From: Thermococcus nautili
GTDB lineage: Archaea > Methanobacteriota_B > Thermococci > Thermococcales > Thermococcaceae
Length of the DNA: 64,000 nucleotides
Direction of reading: 5' to 3'
Assembly: GCF_000585495.1 (NCBI RefSeq)
Contig: NZ_CP007264.1
Coordinates: forward strand, 1,178,001 to 1,242,000
Shown here piece after piece: positions 19,764-24,554 of this stretch. A program made the position numbers and the translations under genes. Numbering within the stretch: the first letter of the stretch is position 1; every line of letters begins with the position of its first letter. The notes under the pieces are model-generated. The model saw nothing but the letters and a program-made list of their open reading frames with translations. It was not told the DNA's origin and made no database searches.

Positions 19764-20045
19764 TTCGGATGTAGTCTTGTATTCTTGTATGTATTTGTGT
19801 ATCATTGTGGTTTTGCCATGTTCCTTAGTATTTAATTGTGTTGTTCCCAATGTAACTAGCTGAGCTCGGGTTGTCCCTACTCCGAATGTTGGAGATTATC
19901 CAAATTACTATTGAAAATTTTGGGCATTATATAACCCGCAAAGTTTAAATAGAACTTCGACGTTACTCTGTTTGGTATAACCAGGTTGTGCTACAATCTG
20001 TTCTCTAAAATACGGTTTGCAATCTTTCCTGTTGGGGGTTGGGGC
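19764..20045. other. AT-rich intergenic region before the winged-helix gene
   Basis: About 280 AT-rich bases. The T-rich start may end transcription of the coiled-coil gene. TATA-like elements occur at about 19927-19934 (ATTATATAA) and 19944-19953 (GTTTAAATAG), either of which could serve the winged-helix gene; TTGGGGGTTGGGG precedes its ATG. I see no convincing ORF or strong hairpin. Confidence 0.5.
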
Positions 20046-20318
20046 ATGAGGCGTTCGAGAGTTGAAATTATTGCTGATATCCTAGAGTCAGCCAACGGTA
20101 AGGGTGCGACGAAGACCCAGATAGTTTACCGAGCGAATCTGAACTTCAAGCTGGCCACGAACTACATACGGTACCTCCTCCGAAAGGGGTACCTTATTGA
20201 GGCCATAGAAGGTAACCGGCGGATATACAGGGTCACGGACAAGGGAAGAACGTTTTTACGCAGTTTCTCAACGATTTACCGTGAACTAGGTGATTTTGAT
20301 TCCTTCGATGGCTTTTGA
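20046..20318 (+). CDS. Winged-helix transcriptional regulator, PF14947 (HTH_45) type
   Basis: A 90-residue protein with one winged-helix domain: RVEIIADILESA, then ATKTQIVYRANLNFKLATNYIRYLLRKGYL as the recognition region, then the wing RRIYRVTDKGRTFL. Archaeal proteins of this type are local transcription factors, for example ArnR-like. The open frame reaches to 19986, but GGGGGTTGGGGC before ATG 20046 supports the shorter form. It lies just upstream of the TasA-like secretion operon in the same direction. The palindromes in the gap between them are candidate binding sites. Confidence 0.78.
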   Translation: MRRSRVEIIADILESANGKGATKTQIVYRANLNFKLATNYIRYLLRKGYLIEAIEGNRRIYRVTDKGRTFLRSFSTIYRELGDFDSFDGF

Positions 20319-20363
20319 TTTCTTCCAATGTCTCTGAACTCCGGGGTCCTTTCGTTTTCTTTT

Positions 20364-20401
20364 CCGTAACAAAGTTACGGATTTCATGTCAGAACGTTCT
20401 G
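20364..20401 (+). promoter_or_regulatory. Two palindromes upstream of the TasA-like operon
   Basis: A perfect 17-bp inverted repeat CCGTAAC-AAA-GTTACGG (20364-20380) is followed by a perfect 12-bp palindrome CAGAACGTTCTG (20390-20401). They lie upstream of a TATA box (GAGCTTATAAAGC, about 20421-20433), which predicts transcription from about 20450. Sites upstream of the TATA box often serve activators in archaea, but repression cannot be excluded. The core TAAC-N3-GTTA is also seen at 12926-12940. Confidence 0.55.
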
Positions 20402-20452
20402 TTCTAAACTCATTTTCTCGGAGCTTATAAAGCTGAAAAATAACATACAGTA

Positions 20453-20467
20453 CGGGCATATTGCCCG
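20453..20467 (+). promoter_or_regulatory. Leader hairpin abutting the ribosome-binding site
   Basis: The perfect inverted repeat CGGGCA-TAT-TGCCCG at 20453-20467 would form a short GC-rich hairpin at or near the 5' end of the mRNA. Its last base is the first base of the ribosome-binding site GGAGGTG (20467-20473) for the ATG at 20480. It could modulate translation or protect the 5' end of the message. Confidence 0.5.
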
Positions 20468-20479
20468 GAGGTGCATGGA

Positions 20480-21058
20480 ATGAAGAGTGGAATCCTGGCC
20501 CTGTTGGTTGTTGGTGTTGTACTGTTTGGACTTGGAGCAGGAACCTGGGCGTACTTCGACGACACGGAGTCAAGCACGGGGAACTACATAACGGCGGACA
20601 TCCTTAACCTTAAAGTCAGCCCGGATAACAGCACCTGGTATGATGGAACTGACGTTCCTTCGAACATCGATTTTGGAAAGGTTTATCCCGGTTGGAGTGG
20701 TAGCGATGACGTTTACGTCATGAACGAGGGCGGACTGCCCGGTGAAGTCTATCTATACCTGAACTACTCCCTCGATGAGAACATCAACCCGGAGTCAGAG
20801 ACCAACGGCGGGCAGACCCTTGCGGATGTTATATACGTCAAGATTTACTACAACGATGAACTCGTTTGGGATGGGTATCTCAAGGACTGGACTTATGACG
20901 ACCCCGGAAACATGCTTGACCTCGGTCCTCTCGATGGCGGAAAGACCGGAAAGATAACTGTTGAGGCTTCTATTGACTACGAAGACGCTGGAAACGACAT
21001 CCAGGGTGATAAGCTTACCTTCGATGTCCACCTGTACCTTAAGCAGGTGCAGGGGTGA
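20480..21058 (+). CDS. TasA/camelysin-like secreted fibre subunit with SipW-type signal
   Basis: A 192-residue exported protein. The N-terminal hydrophobic segment (about residues 3-21) ends in GTWAYFDDTESS, the typical SipW-dependent signal peptide context. The rest is predicted beta-rich, with repeated Asp/Gly/Tyr and few charged-basic residues, like TasA, CalY and the archaeal bundling-pilus subunit AbpA. Such subunits assemble outside the cell into fibres through strand exchange (family knowledge). A dedicated SipW-like peptidase is encoded 1.5 kb downstream. ATG 20480 follows GGAGGTG. A T-run after the stop could make this first gene the most highly expressed. Confidence 0.78.
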   Translation: MKSGILALLVVGVVLFGLGAGTWAYFDDTESSTGNYITADILNLKVSPDNSTWYDGTDVPSNIDFGKVYPGWSGSDDVYVMNEGGLPGEVYLYLNYSLDENINPESETNGGQTLADVIYVKIYYNDELVWDGYLKDWTYDDPGNMLDLGPLDGGKTGKITVEASIDYEDAGNDIQGDKLTFDVHLYLKQVQG

Positions 21059-21069
21059 TTTCCCCTTAA

Positions 21070-21077
21070 CCTTTTTA
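21070..21077 (+). terminator. Intercistronic oligo-T, possible partial terminator
   Basis: CCTTTTTAC lies between the first and second TasA-like genes (T5 at 21072-21076). Archaeal transcription ends readily at short T-runs, so partial termination here would give more mRNA for the first subunit. The same sequence occurs after atpK (41684-41692). Confidence 0.3.
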
Positions 21078-21092
21078 CTGGGGTGAGCAGGG

Positions 21093-21851
21093 ATGCGCAG
21101 TGCCTTCTTTGCCTTTTTCTTGGCTGGAATCGTTGTATTGGCCGTGGGTTACGGCACATGGGCCTACTTCAGCGACCTTGAGGTCAGTGCCGGAGACTAT
21201 GTAACTGCTGATACTCTTGACCTTGTGCTTACAGACCATACTAGCGATGCTAACGCTCAGTGGGGTTACTTTTACATAGCCCCCGGCAGGGTACCCGGGG
21301 TGAACGGAGGGTATAGTGAGGGCGATAGGGCAATTCATATCTTCAACAATGGTACCTATCCTAATACTACAGTTGAGATATGGTTCACATTTGAGTGCTA
21401 TGAAGACAACGATGGTAATTACACAAATGGACTTCAGCCGGGTCCTGAATCAGATACCCTGCAGACAAACGAGAGCGCTTATCTGATGCTGAGTGAGATA
21501 ACATTGAACACTATGGAATACACGGATAGTCAGACTATTCGCCTTATCTATGACAAAAAACTCACTGAAACTGGATATGAATATCTTGCTCCAGAACTCA
21601 AAAGTGAGTTCAGTCCCGGACAGGAAATTACCCTTGCGGACTTGGCCAGAATGAGATTCGTGGGATTGCCAGGTCCGGAGCCTCTCTACGGGACGTTAGA
21701 CACTAGCAGTATCCAGTACTTGGACGAGCCCAACACTCAGCTTTCCTTTGATGGCCCAGAAGGAAAAATGCTAGACTCCAGCCAGAACTACTGGCAGGGC
21801 GACGTCTGTATAATGACCGTCCACGTGAGGTTATTGCAGTCGGAGCCGTGA
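21093..21851 (+). CDS. Second SipW-dependent secreted protein, TasA-like
   Basis: A 252-residue exported protein with the same start as its neighbour: a hydrophobic segment (about residues 4-20) and GTWAYFSDLEVSAGDYVTADTLDL, which aligns with the first gene. The mature part is longer, with acidic and tyrosine-rich beta-like sequence, several possible N-glycosylation sites (for example NGTY, NTTV and NESA), and two cysteines. It may be a minor or tip subunit of the same fibre, as AbpB or TapA are in other systems (inference). GGGGTGAGCAGGG precedes the ATG. Codon use is less GC-rich than in neighbouring genes. Confidence 0.75.
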   Translation: MRSAFFAFFLAGIVVLAVGYGTWAYFSDLEVSAGDYVTADTLDLVLTDHTSDANAQWGYFYIAPGRVPGVNGGYSEGDRAIHIFNNGTYPNTTVEIWFTFECYEDNDGNYTNGLQPGPESDTLQTNESAYLMLSEITLNTMEYTDSQTIRLIYDKKLTETGYEYLAPELKSEFSPGQEITLADLARMRFVGLPGPEPLYGTLDTSSIQYLDEPNTQLSFDGPEGKMLDSSQNYWQGDVCIMTVHVRLLQSEP

Positions 21852-21856
21852 GCCCC

Positions 21857-22108
21857 ATGCGGGTCCTCTACGCCATCTTTTTCTTTGTTGCAGTTACGTT
21901 CACCCTCTACCTCCTTGCCATGTATGAGGTAGGCAACACTGAACCTCAGGCTTCTAGTGTCTTTGATAACGTGACCCAGAACGTTAGTGCTTCCCCGGCC
22001 GAGATGACGATGGCCCTTGGAACGATTTCGTTCCTCGCGAGGGTTGGCCTTGCCGTGGTGTTCCTGAGCATGGCCGTCTACGTAATCTCCGAGCTGGTGA
22101 TGAAATGA
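21857..22108 (+). CDS. Small two-helix membrane protein of the TasA-like operon
   Basis: An 83-residue protein with two hydrophobic helices (about residues 2-20 and 58-79) and a polar stretch with possible N-glycosylation sites (NVTQ, NVSA) between them, so that loop probably faces outside. The function is unknown. It begins 5 bases after the preceding stop codon and ends in an ATGATGA overlap with the next gene, so it belongs firmly to this operon. It could be an assembly or anchoring factor. An upstream in-frame GTG at 21848 overlaps the preceding stop and is less likely. Confidence 0.65.
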   Translation: MRVLYAIFFFVAVTFTLYLLAMYEVGNTEPQASSVFDNVTQNVSASPAEMTMALGTISFLARVGLAVVFLSMAVYVISELVMK

Positions 22109-22593
22109 TGAGGACTCTCTTGGCATGGCTCGTGGTCGTTTCAATTTTCGTCTACTCGTACTTCGGCTCGTTTGCTTACTTCTCGGATTCCGCTTCAATA
22201 AGGCTGTCGCTTCAAATGGAGCAGACTTCGGTTCAAATCAGCTGTGAAAACCTTACCCTCGTTCACTGTCACTGCCCCTGCTCCTGCTCCTGCGGCTACT
22301 ACATCCTCAGGGGCATCATCGTTAACACCACCGGCAACTCCACGCTTGATGGAATCTATTTCAGTAGCAGGGGATGGGTTTTGGGCGGTGTGATTGTTGA
22401 CAATTCAAGCTTTAATGCCGGGGCCGGTCTGTACCTACCTCTGAACGCTACTCTATCCCCTGGGGTTCACGACGTTTCCCTAATCCTCTACAAGACGAAT
22501 TCCCGCGGAAATAGGCATGCCATGTACTTGGTGTTCTACATTGATGGTAGAGAGTACCCTCTGTCAATCGTTCCAAGGTGGTGTCGGCGATGA
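22105..22593 (+). CDS. SipW-type exported protein with a cysteine cluster
   Basis: A 162-residue protein with a hydrophobic N-terminus (about residues 5-22) ending in GSFAYFSDSAS, similar to the signals of the two TasA-like proteins. Shortly after comes HCHCPCSCSCG (about residues 54-64), five cysteines and two histidines in eleven residues, which is rare in a secreted archaeal protein and could bind metal or form disulfides. The C-terminal half is beta-like with possible N-glycosylation sites. The start overlaps the upstream stop codon (ATGATGA), and the stop overlaps the peptidase start codon. The function is unknown. Confidence 0.68.
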   Translation: MMRTLLAWLVVVSIFVYSYFGSFAYFSDSASIRLSLQMEQTSVQISCENLTLVHCHCPCSCSCGYYILRGIIVNTTGNSTLDGIYFSSRGWVLGGVIVDNSSFNAGAGLYLPLNATLSPGVHDVSLILYKTNSRGNRHAMYLVFYIDGREYPLSIVPRWCRR

Positions 22594-23504
22594 GAAGGCT
22601 TCTCTCATTCGCGGTCATCCTCGTGCTCCTGCTGACCTTTCCAAGGCTCAGGACGCTAACGCCACTCGTGGTTCTAAGCGGGAGCATGGAGCCCTACTTT
22701 AACCCCGGTGACATGGTCTTAATCGAGCCGGTGAACGCCTCCGGTGTTCAAATCGGGGACGTGGTGGCCTTCCATCCGGCGTGGGCTAAGGGAGAAGAGG
22801 CGCGCAATACACTGTACACCCATAGGGTCGTTGGCATAATCAGGAACGCAACCGGTTTATACTTCGTCACCAAGGGGGACAACAACGAGGAAAATGACCC
22901 CGCGCCAGTTCCCGCCCAGAACGTCGTCGGGAAGGTCACCATCGTCCTTCCTTATCTTGGCTATATGACGAGGCACAATCCGGATAGGAGGGTGCTCCTG
23001 GCTGTTTACGTGCTGTTCATTTTGCTCCCGGGAATTTACATACTCGTGTCTACGCTTCGAGAGCTCTCTGAGCGTCCAGTAGTGGCGCGGAGGAAAGAAC
23101 GCCTCCAGCTAATTAGCTCAAGGTATTCCCGTCTTGTTTTCCCCAAGAAAGCTCTCTCCATCTTCATAGGTTTTCTGCTGTTTTTCACTGTCTTACTAAC
23201 CCCCCGGCTTGATTCGGCCAGGGATGGGTTTGCCAACGGCGGAAAACTGCCGGTGCTCCTAATCTCCGGGGGAGTTCCTGGATACGTTTACCTCAACCCC
23301 GGCGACTCCTGCGCCTGCAACTACACCTACGCAGTAAACGCCGTCCTGCCGGTTCAGTGGCTTGTCCTTCTCTCCGGGATTCCTCTTTTTCCCCGGTCGC
23401 TCGCTCTTCTCCTAGCTCTGCTCTCAACTCTCATGCTGTATCCTCTCTGGACGTCCAGGTTCCCGAACGTGGAGGTGAAAAGGCATGGACCCCGCTTTAT
23501 TTGA
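22590..23504 (+). CDS. SipW/ER-type signal peptidase I with extra C-terminal membrane domain
   Basis: A 304-residue membrane protein. The first half is an archaeal/ER-type signal peptidase: membrane anchor (about residues 5-20), catalytic serine S32 in SGSMEP, catalytic histidine H78 in YTHRV replacing the bacterial lysine, and the conserved TKGDNNEENDP. It should process the SipW-type signals of the neighbouring proteins. The second half (about 135-290) adds four or more hydrophobic segments around an exported loop with CAC, and ordinary signal peptidases lack this. The ATG at 22590 overlaps the previous stop codon; GGTGGTG upstream supports it. Confidence 0.83.
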   Translation: MRRLLSFAVILVLLLTFPRLRTLTPLVVLSGSMEPYFNPGDMVLIEPVNASGVQIGDVVAFHPAWAKGEEARNTLYTHRVVGIIRNATGLYFVTKGDNNEENDPAPVPAQNVVGKVTIVLPYLGYMTRHNPDRRVLLAVYVLFILLPGIYILVSTLRELSERPVVARRKERLQLISSRYSRLVFPKKALSIFIGFLLFFTVLLTPRLDSARDGFANGGKLPVLLISGGVPGYVYLNPGDSCACNYTYAVNAVLPVQWLVLLSGIPLFPRSLALLLALLSTLMLYPLWTSRFPNVEVKRHGPRFI

Positions 23505-24507
23505 AGTCCTTCTTAAAATTAGGCGGAACTGGCTGGCCGTTTTCCTCGTTTCCCTGCTACTCTCCGGGGCGCTGGCGTACGCCTACACGGTGACCCCTGC
23601 CGTCGTCCGGGAAACCTCAAAGGTCTCCAAGCCCCTCTACCGCTGGGGCGGTGTTCTCAACGCTTCCGCCGTCGTTGCAAAGGAGAACCCCATCTGGTCT
23701 TTGGGGGAGAGGGTTAGCCTTCCCATTTACCCCCTCGACGTCACCCCCGTGCTTGAGCCTACGCTAACATGGAAAATCTACGCCAAATCCGCCGACGTCA
23801 ACGTCACCGCTCACATGGAAGTTCTCTATTACGTCTCCTACAACGGCGAAAGGCTGTTTGAGAAGGTGTACAACGCCTCTTCGGCATCGGGACGTAACGG
23901 AGTTGTCCTTTCAATTCCGGTCAACGTCTCCGATGTCGTTTCAAGGATTGAGGCCGATGTGGCTTTCCTGAAGTTGCCCCGCTTTGAGAGCGGTATCGAG
24001 GTGAAAGGGGACTTCTCCTACTCGGGAACCGTCGAAGGAAGGCCCGTTTCGGGAAGCGGTTCCCTGAACGGAAACGTTAAGGTGTCCTATGGCTCGGTCT
24101 ACACCTTCACCGGTGACGCCGTCAACGGCACGGGCACGTACACTGAAACCGTAACCTTCACGAGGCCGGTCAACCGCGTAAAGCGCACACTGCTCCTCGG
24201 GGGCTCTGTCCTGGCCCTCGCCCTGGCCATTGTGGCGCTTGTGTTGAGGTTCCGTTTCAACCCCTCCCCGGAGGAGGTGGAAAGGGTCAGGGCCATGGCG
24301 GAGCTCAGGCGGTACGGCAAGTGGATAAGCACTGGAAAGCTCCCTGAAAGCTACGTCCACTCACCGCCCAAGGTGGAGTTCCCAAGCCTTGGAGACCTCG
24401 TTGAAACGGCCATTGACCACGGGAAGAGGGTAATCCACGACCCGGAAAGGGGACTTTACTTCTTCGTTGACGGGGGAGTTCTCTACATCTTCTCTCCGAA
24501 ATCCTAA
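23485..24507 (+). CDS. DUF5305-like bitopic membrane protein
   Basis: A 340-residue protein with an N-terminal membrane helix (about residues 16-36), a large extracytoplasmic beta-rich domain with several possible N-glycosylation sites (about 37-230), a second helix (about 232-252) and a cytoplasmic tail of about 85 residues. This is the layout of DUF5305 proteins, which in archaea often sit beside SipW-like peptidases. It overlaps the peptidase gene by 20 bases and closes the operon. A role in anchoring or exporting the fibre subunits is an inference; no enzymatic motif is visible. Confidence 0.72.
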
Positions 24508-24554
24508 CGAAAGCCTTTTTTACATCCCCTTTCAGTTACCCCCAGGTGAGAATT

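Follow-up and report, generated by a model that had tools for sequence, protein, structure and literature searches.

A TasA-like, SipW-linked gene locus in a Thermococcus-type genome as a candidate system for donor-strand surface fibres

Described TasA-type systems and the Thermococcus locus

In the tapA-sipW-tasA operon of Bacillus subtilis, the source of the TasA biofilm fibre, TasA-family subunits with SipW-type signals are encoded together with a dedicated peptidase of the endoplasmic reticulum (ER) type. A locus of related content is described here from a Thermococcus-type genome of 1.98 Mb, within a stretch of 64,000 nucleotides (G000:C1:1178001-1242000) referred to below as the window, where seven plus-strand genes occupy positions 20046-24507. 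The locus shares with the Bacillus operon the subunit family, the signals, the peptidase, the proline box and a third substrate that retains the donor end only. It differs in belonging to an archaeal hyperthermophile, in having two subunits and in lacking a TapA homologue by sequence. Its peptidase has additional membrane helices as well as a C-terminal insert, a two-helix protein and a DUF5305 protein are added, and the regulator is of the HTH_45 type rather than SinR. The sipW-tasA/calY/capP region of Bacillus cereus is similar in that one SipW serves two camelysin-family subunits (PMC13082335, PMC10151520), whereas DUF5305 is not described there and no gene corresponding to the chaperone-like CapP was identified in the Thermococcus locus.

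TasA homologues are known in archaea (PMC10151520, PMC9674648). The archaeal bundling pili of Pyrobaculum (AbpA) and AbpX of Pyrodictium are described as TasA-related donor-strand fibres of hyperthermophilic archaea (PMC9674648, PMC11952670). The Sulfolobus thread (Saci_0406) is likewise an archaeal donor-strand filament, although its structural overlap with the predicted subunit is low (template modelling score, TM, 0.37). A further likeness is to the DUF1102-SipW-DUF5305 clusters of Thermococcus and haloarchaea, which are annotated only. These have secreted subunit(s), a long SipW, a small secreted protein and DUF5305 in the same order, but their subunits are DUF1102-type, with an 'ANFRxYxADR' start, whereas those described here are TasA-type. 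A literature search returned no paper naming DUF5305 with SipW, camelysin, DUF1102 or Thermococcus, and a search by titles returned none on TasA in Thermococcus; the Pyrobaculum bundling-pilus paper may already list some homologues. Archaeal TasA-like fibres are already known; what is new is the locus itself, the finding that both subunits conserve the contact residues, a third protein with a donor end only, and the coupling of SipW with DUF5305.

The locus probably directs the production and assembly of a TasA-type donor-strand surface fibre, with a membrane module formed by SipW and DUF5305. At the level of sequence, this is supported by the families to which the subunits and the peptidase belong, by the intact Ser-His-Asp site, by three substrates with SipW-type signals, and by conserved interface residues and synteny. 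From these and from structural models, we infer fibre assembly and a function in biofilms. The seven open reading frames (ORFs) are all present as follows, and their positions and, for most genes, family matches bear out the initial annotation of seven adjacent genes of these types:

20046-20318, + strand: gene 1, winged-helix DNA-binding protein (HTH_45/Sso10a family), probable local regulator; HTH_45 and NF053610 matches, found in 10 intact loci
20480-21058, + strand: gene 2 (P0002), TasA/camelysin-like subunit 1, probable major fibre subunit; PF12389, TIGR04088, profile, fold and F26/P70/Q189 box
21093-21851, + strand: gene 3 (P0003), TasA-like subunit 2, a longer paralogue; profile-profile match to subunit 1
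21848-22108, + strand: gene 4 (P0004), small membrane protein with two predicted helices; hydrophobic segments, counterparts in intact loci
22105-22593, + strand: gene 5 (P0005), third SipW-signal secreted protein, proposed TapA-like starter or anchor; N-terminal profile match to subunit 1
22590-23504, + strand: gene 6 (P0006), SipW/ER-type signal peptidase with an extra C-terminal membrane part; TIGR02228, invariant catalytic residues, SEC11A
23485-24507, + strand: gene 7 (P0007), DUF5305 protein; PF17231, AlphaFold model, linkage to long SipW

From gene 2 onwards the genes are closely spaced. A gap of 161 base pairs (bp), which holds a second TATA-like box, separates genes 1 and 2, and 34 nucleotides separate genes 2 and 3. 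Overlaps of four nucleotides join genes 3 and 4 (21848-21851), 4 and 5 (22105-22108), and 5 and 6 (22590-22593), and genes 6 and 7 overlap by 20 nucleotides (23485-23504). Overlapping coding regions had been proposed from the two-helix gene to the DUF5305 gene; the overlap is indeed found there, but it reaches one gene further, to genes 3 and 4. The next gene downstream is alaS, which starts at 24546.

Subunits, contact residues and the signal peptidase

By sequence, the gene 2 product is a member of the TasA/camelysin family. It matches the Pfam family Peptidase_M73/camelysin (PF12389) at 25.4 bits (cut-off 22.5) and the SipW-signal model TIGR04088 at 29.6 bits (cut-off 19). The TasA equivalog NF046066 was not reached (17 bits against 450 required), and orthology to TasA is not implied. 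Gene 3 is a full-length homologue of gene 2 by profile-profile comparison (99.5%, E 3.7e-23, 192 columns) and matches TIGR04088 at 19.8 bits. When the entire 1.98-Mb genome was searched with TIGR04088, only genes 2, 3 and, weakly, 5 (12.5 bits) were matched. That SipW-type signals are confined to three genes strongly indicates that the gene 6 peptidase belongs with their products.

The gene 2 family profile matches TasA in the PDB (8aur/5of1) at 4e-6 and AbpX at 1e-3 and 3e-3. These matches needed the profile, as PDB searches using the single sequences of genes 2 and 3 gave nothing meaningful. The structure of the gene 2 product was modelled with AlphaFold2 on 20 relatives, and the model is beta-rich, with a mean predicted local distance difference test (pLDDT) score of 76 and most core blocks at 74-96. 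Searched against the PDB, it matches the fibre form of TasA best (8aur, E 1.7e-6, probability 1.00), ahead of the TasA monomer 5of1 (2.4e-3). Other donor-strand pili also stand high in the list (thread 7pnb, CS20 8eht, CFA/I 4y2l), with the Sulfolobus thread filament as the fourth match (E 1e-3, TM 0.37). In a test set beforehand, the predicted fold of gene 2 was thus TasA-like and nearest to the fibre form, as the naming of TasA-like proteins in the initial annotation had anticipated. The suggested likeness to archaeal bundling pili stands in part only: AbpX was matched, weakly, at E 1e-3, but AbpA was not among the matches of the gene 2 profile.

Three successive subunits contribute to the proline box of TasA: the first supplies F29, the second Q232, and the third P62 together with F200. 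No other part of camelysins is as strongly conserved (PMC10151520). In the profile alignment to 8aur, TasA P62 corresponds to P70 of gene 2 and Q232 to Q189, and F29, the P2' residue, is equated with F26 by its position relative to the signal. Alignment of the gene 2 family finds F26 and P70 in 20/20 members and Q189 in 19/20; in the gene 3 family, an aromatic P2' residue, P64 and Q249 are each present in 10/10. The gene 5 family has an invariant aromatic F26 and an invariant D28, with no fully conserved proline or glutamine. Therefore, the products of genes 2 and 3 would have both donor and acceptor ends, and that of gene 5 the donor end only. Studies have reported that an aromatic P2' residue is handled by SipW and poorly by the ordinary bacterial peptidase (PMC10269814). 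Separately, solitary camelysin-like proteins of about 200 residues with the same proline box occur in many Thermococcaceae, with no adjoining peptidase in the loci read; the window's own genome gave no match of this solitary type.

Comparison of the gene 5 and gene 2 profiles gives 94.9% over 54 N-terminal columns, which cover the signal and the first mature residues only. This upholds the SipW-type signal of what had been described as a third SipW-type protein with a cysteine cluster, but the exact cluster is not conserved, with half of it absent in a 61%-identical relative (L034). Pfam and NCBIfam searches gave nothing of note for genes 4 and 5, and these family searches found no TapA sequence homology for gene 5. 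The presence of a donor end without an acceptor box suggests a TapA-like starter, the likeness to TapA being at most one of role. Gene 4 has hydrophobic segments at residues 1-29 and 53-86, and every intact locus carries a counterpart. Between the window and the L034 locus of genome G043, genes 5 (61%) and 6 (79%) have diverged far more rapidly than genes 1 and 7 (96%).

Gene 6 matches the archaeal signal peptidase model TIGR02228 at 108.8 bits (cut-off 51.85, E 2.3e-31), and its profile matches human SEC11A/C in the PDB at 4e-25. Residues S32, H78, D97 and D103 are invariant among 24 relatives, with the Ser-His-Asp residues in their motifs. The score required for the Bacillus SipW equivalog NF046067 was not reached (85.4 against 190); judged from its sequence, the enzyme works like SipW but is not an orthologue of Bacillus SipW. 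Relative to the short SipW-like enzymes found in Thermococcales (about 190 residues), it has added hydrophobic segments that flank an insert with a conserved LPV motif at its end, the insert being about 50 residues long in gene 6 and about 95 in paralogues. The idea that this C-terminal insert is a TasA-like domain was dropped, with a profile comparison of 15% at best. Three further peptidase homologues lie elsewhere in the genome, so the uniqueness of the locus lies in the SipW-type signals and not in the enzyme. A second test set beforehand asked for linkage of peptidase and subunits, which was found in ten species of two genera; the claim that the locus has its own SipW-type processing enzyme is thereby supported. 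Elsewhere in the genome, a short SipW-like peptidase of 187 residues (L043, G000:C1:1670691-1671755) adjoins a secreted protein of 143 residues without a TasA-type signal. Short peptidases of this type occur in about 50 genomes, and the pairing with the 143-residue protein is present in the loci read.

Conservation, proposed assembly and rival readings

Orthologues of gene 6 have a patchy distribution, being found in 11 of 94 Thermococcaceae genomes. Ten of these, from ten species in two genera, carry the complete seven-gene set with its order kept, which agrees with the gene order expected in other Thermococcales when that check was run. Because these genes recur in one order in ten species, the locus is not a product of chance. 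In the remaining genome, G076, from another genus, genes 1-3 have been lost and the upstream coiled-coil gene is fused to gene 4, with the peptidase and DUF5305 retained; no relative of gene 2 was found elsewhere in that genome. All 11 hold the set between the same coiled-coil gene and alaS, which are 4.0-6.6 kb apart; the distance between these two genes falls below 200 bp in 65 other genomes. A DUF5305 tail remains at the site in G027, and in G007, from another genus, broken pieces of genes 1, 2, 6 and 7 lie across the coiled-coil gene from this site. The peptidase and DUF5305 trees place G076 with four g1 species and the alaS tree does not, and inheritance has therefore not been purely vertical. 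It is likely that the locus is old, has kept to one site, has often been lost and has sometimes been exchanged via flanking homology. A mobile-element origin was rejected in view of the fixed site and the remnants at or beside it.

In the proposed mechanism, the products of genes 2, 3 and 5 would be exported by the Sec system. The gene 6 peptidase would cut after Ala24 to give a mature N-terminus beginning Tyr-Phe. The freed N-terminal strand would then enter the next subunit, with its Phe packing on P70 and Q189 of the neighbours, as in TasA. Gene 2 would supply the main subunit and gene 3 the second, comparable to TasA and CalY, and the gene 5 product, a donor without an acceptor box, may start or end the fibre like TapA. 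The peptidase, the two-helix protein and DUF5305 would together form the membrane site of subunit release. Gene 1 would control the subunit promoter via CGTAAC repeats.

Several observations weigh against this mechanism. The locus is not essential, as its patchy distribution (11 of 94 genomes) indicates, and G076 retains the peptidase and DUF5305 without the subunits, so that these two may have other work. The gene 3 profile has no relative in the PDB. The overlap of the gene 2 model with 8aur is moderate (TM 0.50/0.42), and residues 18-37, the N-terminal strand, have low pLDDT in what is a monomer model. It is unlikely, though by a degree that leaves it some weight, that the products instead form a SipW-processed surface coat, monomeric surface proteins, or a cannula-like sheet or tube. 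TasA monomers that are stable and self-complemented occur in solution (PMC9674648), and many Thermococcaceae have the solitary camelysin-like proteins mentioned above. Against such products, the fold search placed fibre TasA (8aur, 1.7e-6) ahead of the monomer (5of1, 2.4e-3), and the few invariant positions include residues of the subunit-subunit contact, for which a monomer would have no use.

The Pfam name would make the gene 2 product a secreted metalloprotease (camelysin, M73), in line with a PF12389 score above the cut-off. However, HExxH, the motif of zinc proteases, is absent from 41/41 aligned sequences, and the same alignments match the fibre protein TasA by profile and fold; the product is almost certainly not such an enzyme. 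That the locus is a relic or a mobile cassette with no function today would accord with the patchiness (11/94), the eroded remnants in G007 and G027, the subunit-less G076, and the grouping of G076 with four g1 species in the peptidase and DUF5305 trees, unlike alaS. This too is very unlikely: the frames are open, the catalytic and interface residues are conserved in ten species, the site is one and the same in 11/11, no integrase-like gene is among the seven, and promoter elements are conserved. A TasA-type fibre is the probable product. It would add Thermococcales to the range of such fibres, with a locus that is complete and self-contained, and archaeal assembly would be open to testing there by gene deletion. 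Genetics is established in Thermococcales, e.g., in T. kodakarensis.

The SipW-DUF5305 pairing and the promoter region

Gene 7 matches DUF5305 (PF17231) at 111.3 bits (cut-off 29, E 5.8e-32). In its AlphaFold model (mean pLDDT 89), an elongated beta ectodomain with very long strands lies between two membrane helices, and a small C-terminal domain, probably cytosolic, follows the second helix. The DUF5305 profile has no PDB relative, and since the fold matches of the model are weak (best E 7e-4, TM 0.17), no function was read from the fold.

The genomic context is more informative. Across 115 genomes of the phylum, a long SipW-type peptidase lies within 4 kb of 92/97 DUF5305 matches; the five exceptions are two remnants of the TasA-like locus and three cases in fragmented assemblies. 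In the same phylum, DUF5305 accompanies 92 of 101 long peptidases and none of 50 short SipWs. The peptidase queries for this count came from loci adjoining DUF5305, but the search was genome-wide. The genome of the window has a second such cluster (L100, G000:C1:1321178-1325353), with two DUF1102 proteins, a SipW of 352 residues, a secreted protein of 292 residues and DUF5305, and another family of the class combines a secreted protein of 327 residues with SipW and DUF5305. On haloarchaeal plasmids, five of the seven DUF5305 genes examined have a long signal peptidase I no more than two genes away, and two cases share the gene order of the DUF1102 cluster. Long SipW and DUF5305 are thus almost inseparable, with TasA-type or DUF1102-type subunits in Thermococcales, and also in haloarchaea.

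DUF5305, a family of unknown function, gains a strong context as the near-obligate partner of long SipW. It is conceivable, if somewhat doubtful, that the pair is a general archaeal machine for SipW-dependent surface polymers, with DUF5305 as the platform or anchor that takes the cut subunits and with different subunits plugged in by different lineages. If so, the subunits would be TasA-type here and DUF1102-type in most Thermococcales and in haloarchaea. The context of DUF5305 also predicts that DUF1102 proteins are SipW-processed surface subunits in many archaea.

The peptidase and DUF5305 of the L100 cluster are near-universal in Thermococcaceae. One of its DUF1102 proteins (L100:4178-4852) has a weak PDB match to the 'major tail protein' 9lwa (E 7e-4). 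In a variant locus (L047, G073:C1), a single TasA-like gene is accompanied by a pair of winged-helix genes, DUF5305 and a SipW extended at its C-terminus; the extension has a weak Ig-like Big_3_5 match (E 0.03).

Gene 1 matches Pfam HTH_45 at 79.8 bits (cut-off 25.5, E 1.5e-22) and the NCBIfam Sso10a family NF053610 at 86 bits (cut-off 60, E 1.3e-24). The following elements lie around it:

19944-19951, + strand: TATA-like box TTTAAATA of the winged-helix gene; motif upstream of gene 1 in 10/10 loci
20363-20381, no strand assigned: operator-like inverted repeat TCCGTAACAAAGTTACGGA with 8-bp arms
20424-20431, + strand: TATA-like box CTTATAAA of the subunit operon; CTTATAAA or CTTAAATA at comparable distance in 9/10 loci
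20453-20467, + strand: G+C-rich leader hairpin directly 5' of the gene 2 ribosome-binding site, predicted by folding

The motif CGTAACNNNGTTNCG is present upstream of gene 2 in 7/10 genomes, on either strand, with few matches elsewhere in these genomes, and the remaining three carry GTTAC/GTAAC variants of the repeat there. The conserved repeat at the subunit promoter is a putative site that supports the earlier proposal of a local regulator, and it is plausible from the sequence that gene 1 binds there. In G030, one further CGTAACNNNGTTNCG match lies in the intergenic region preceding a second TasA-like gene. An operator-like match at G000:461187 was set aside as it falls inside a coding frame and is probably due to chance. 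The leader hairpin appears in 9/9 folded leaders, where the sequences differ and the pairing is kept (z-scores -0.2 to -2.9).

In another family of the class (L104:2764-3444, L105:2749-3438, L109), HTH_45 is fused to a response-regulator receiver. This fusion adjoins a sensor-kinase-like gene and lies about 2 kb from the SipW-DUF5305 cluster.

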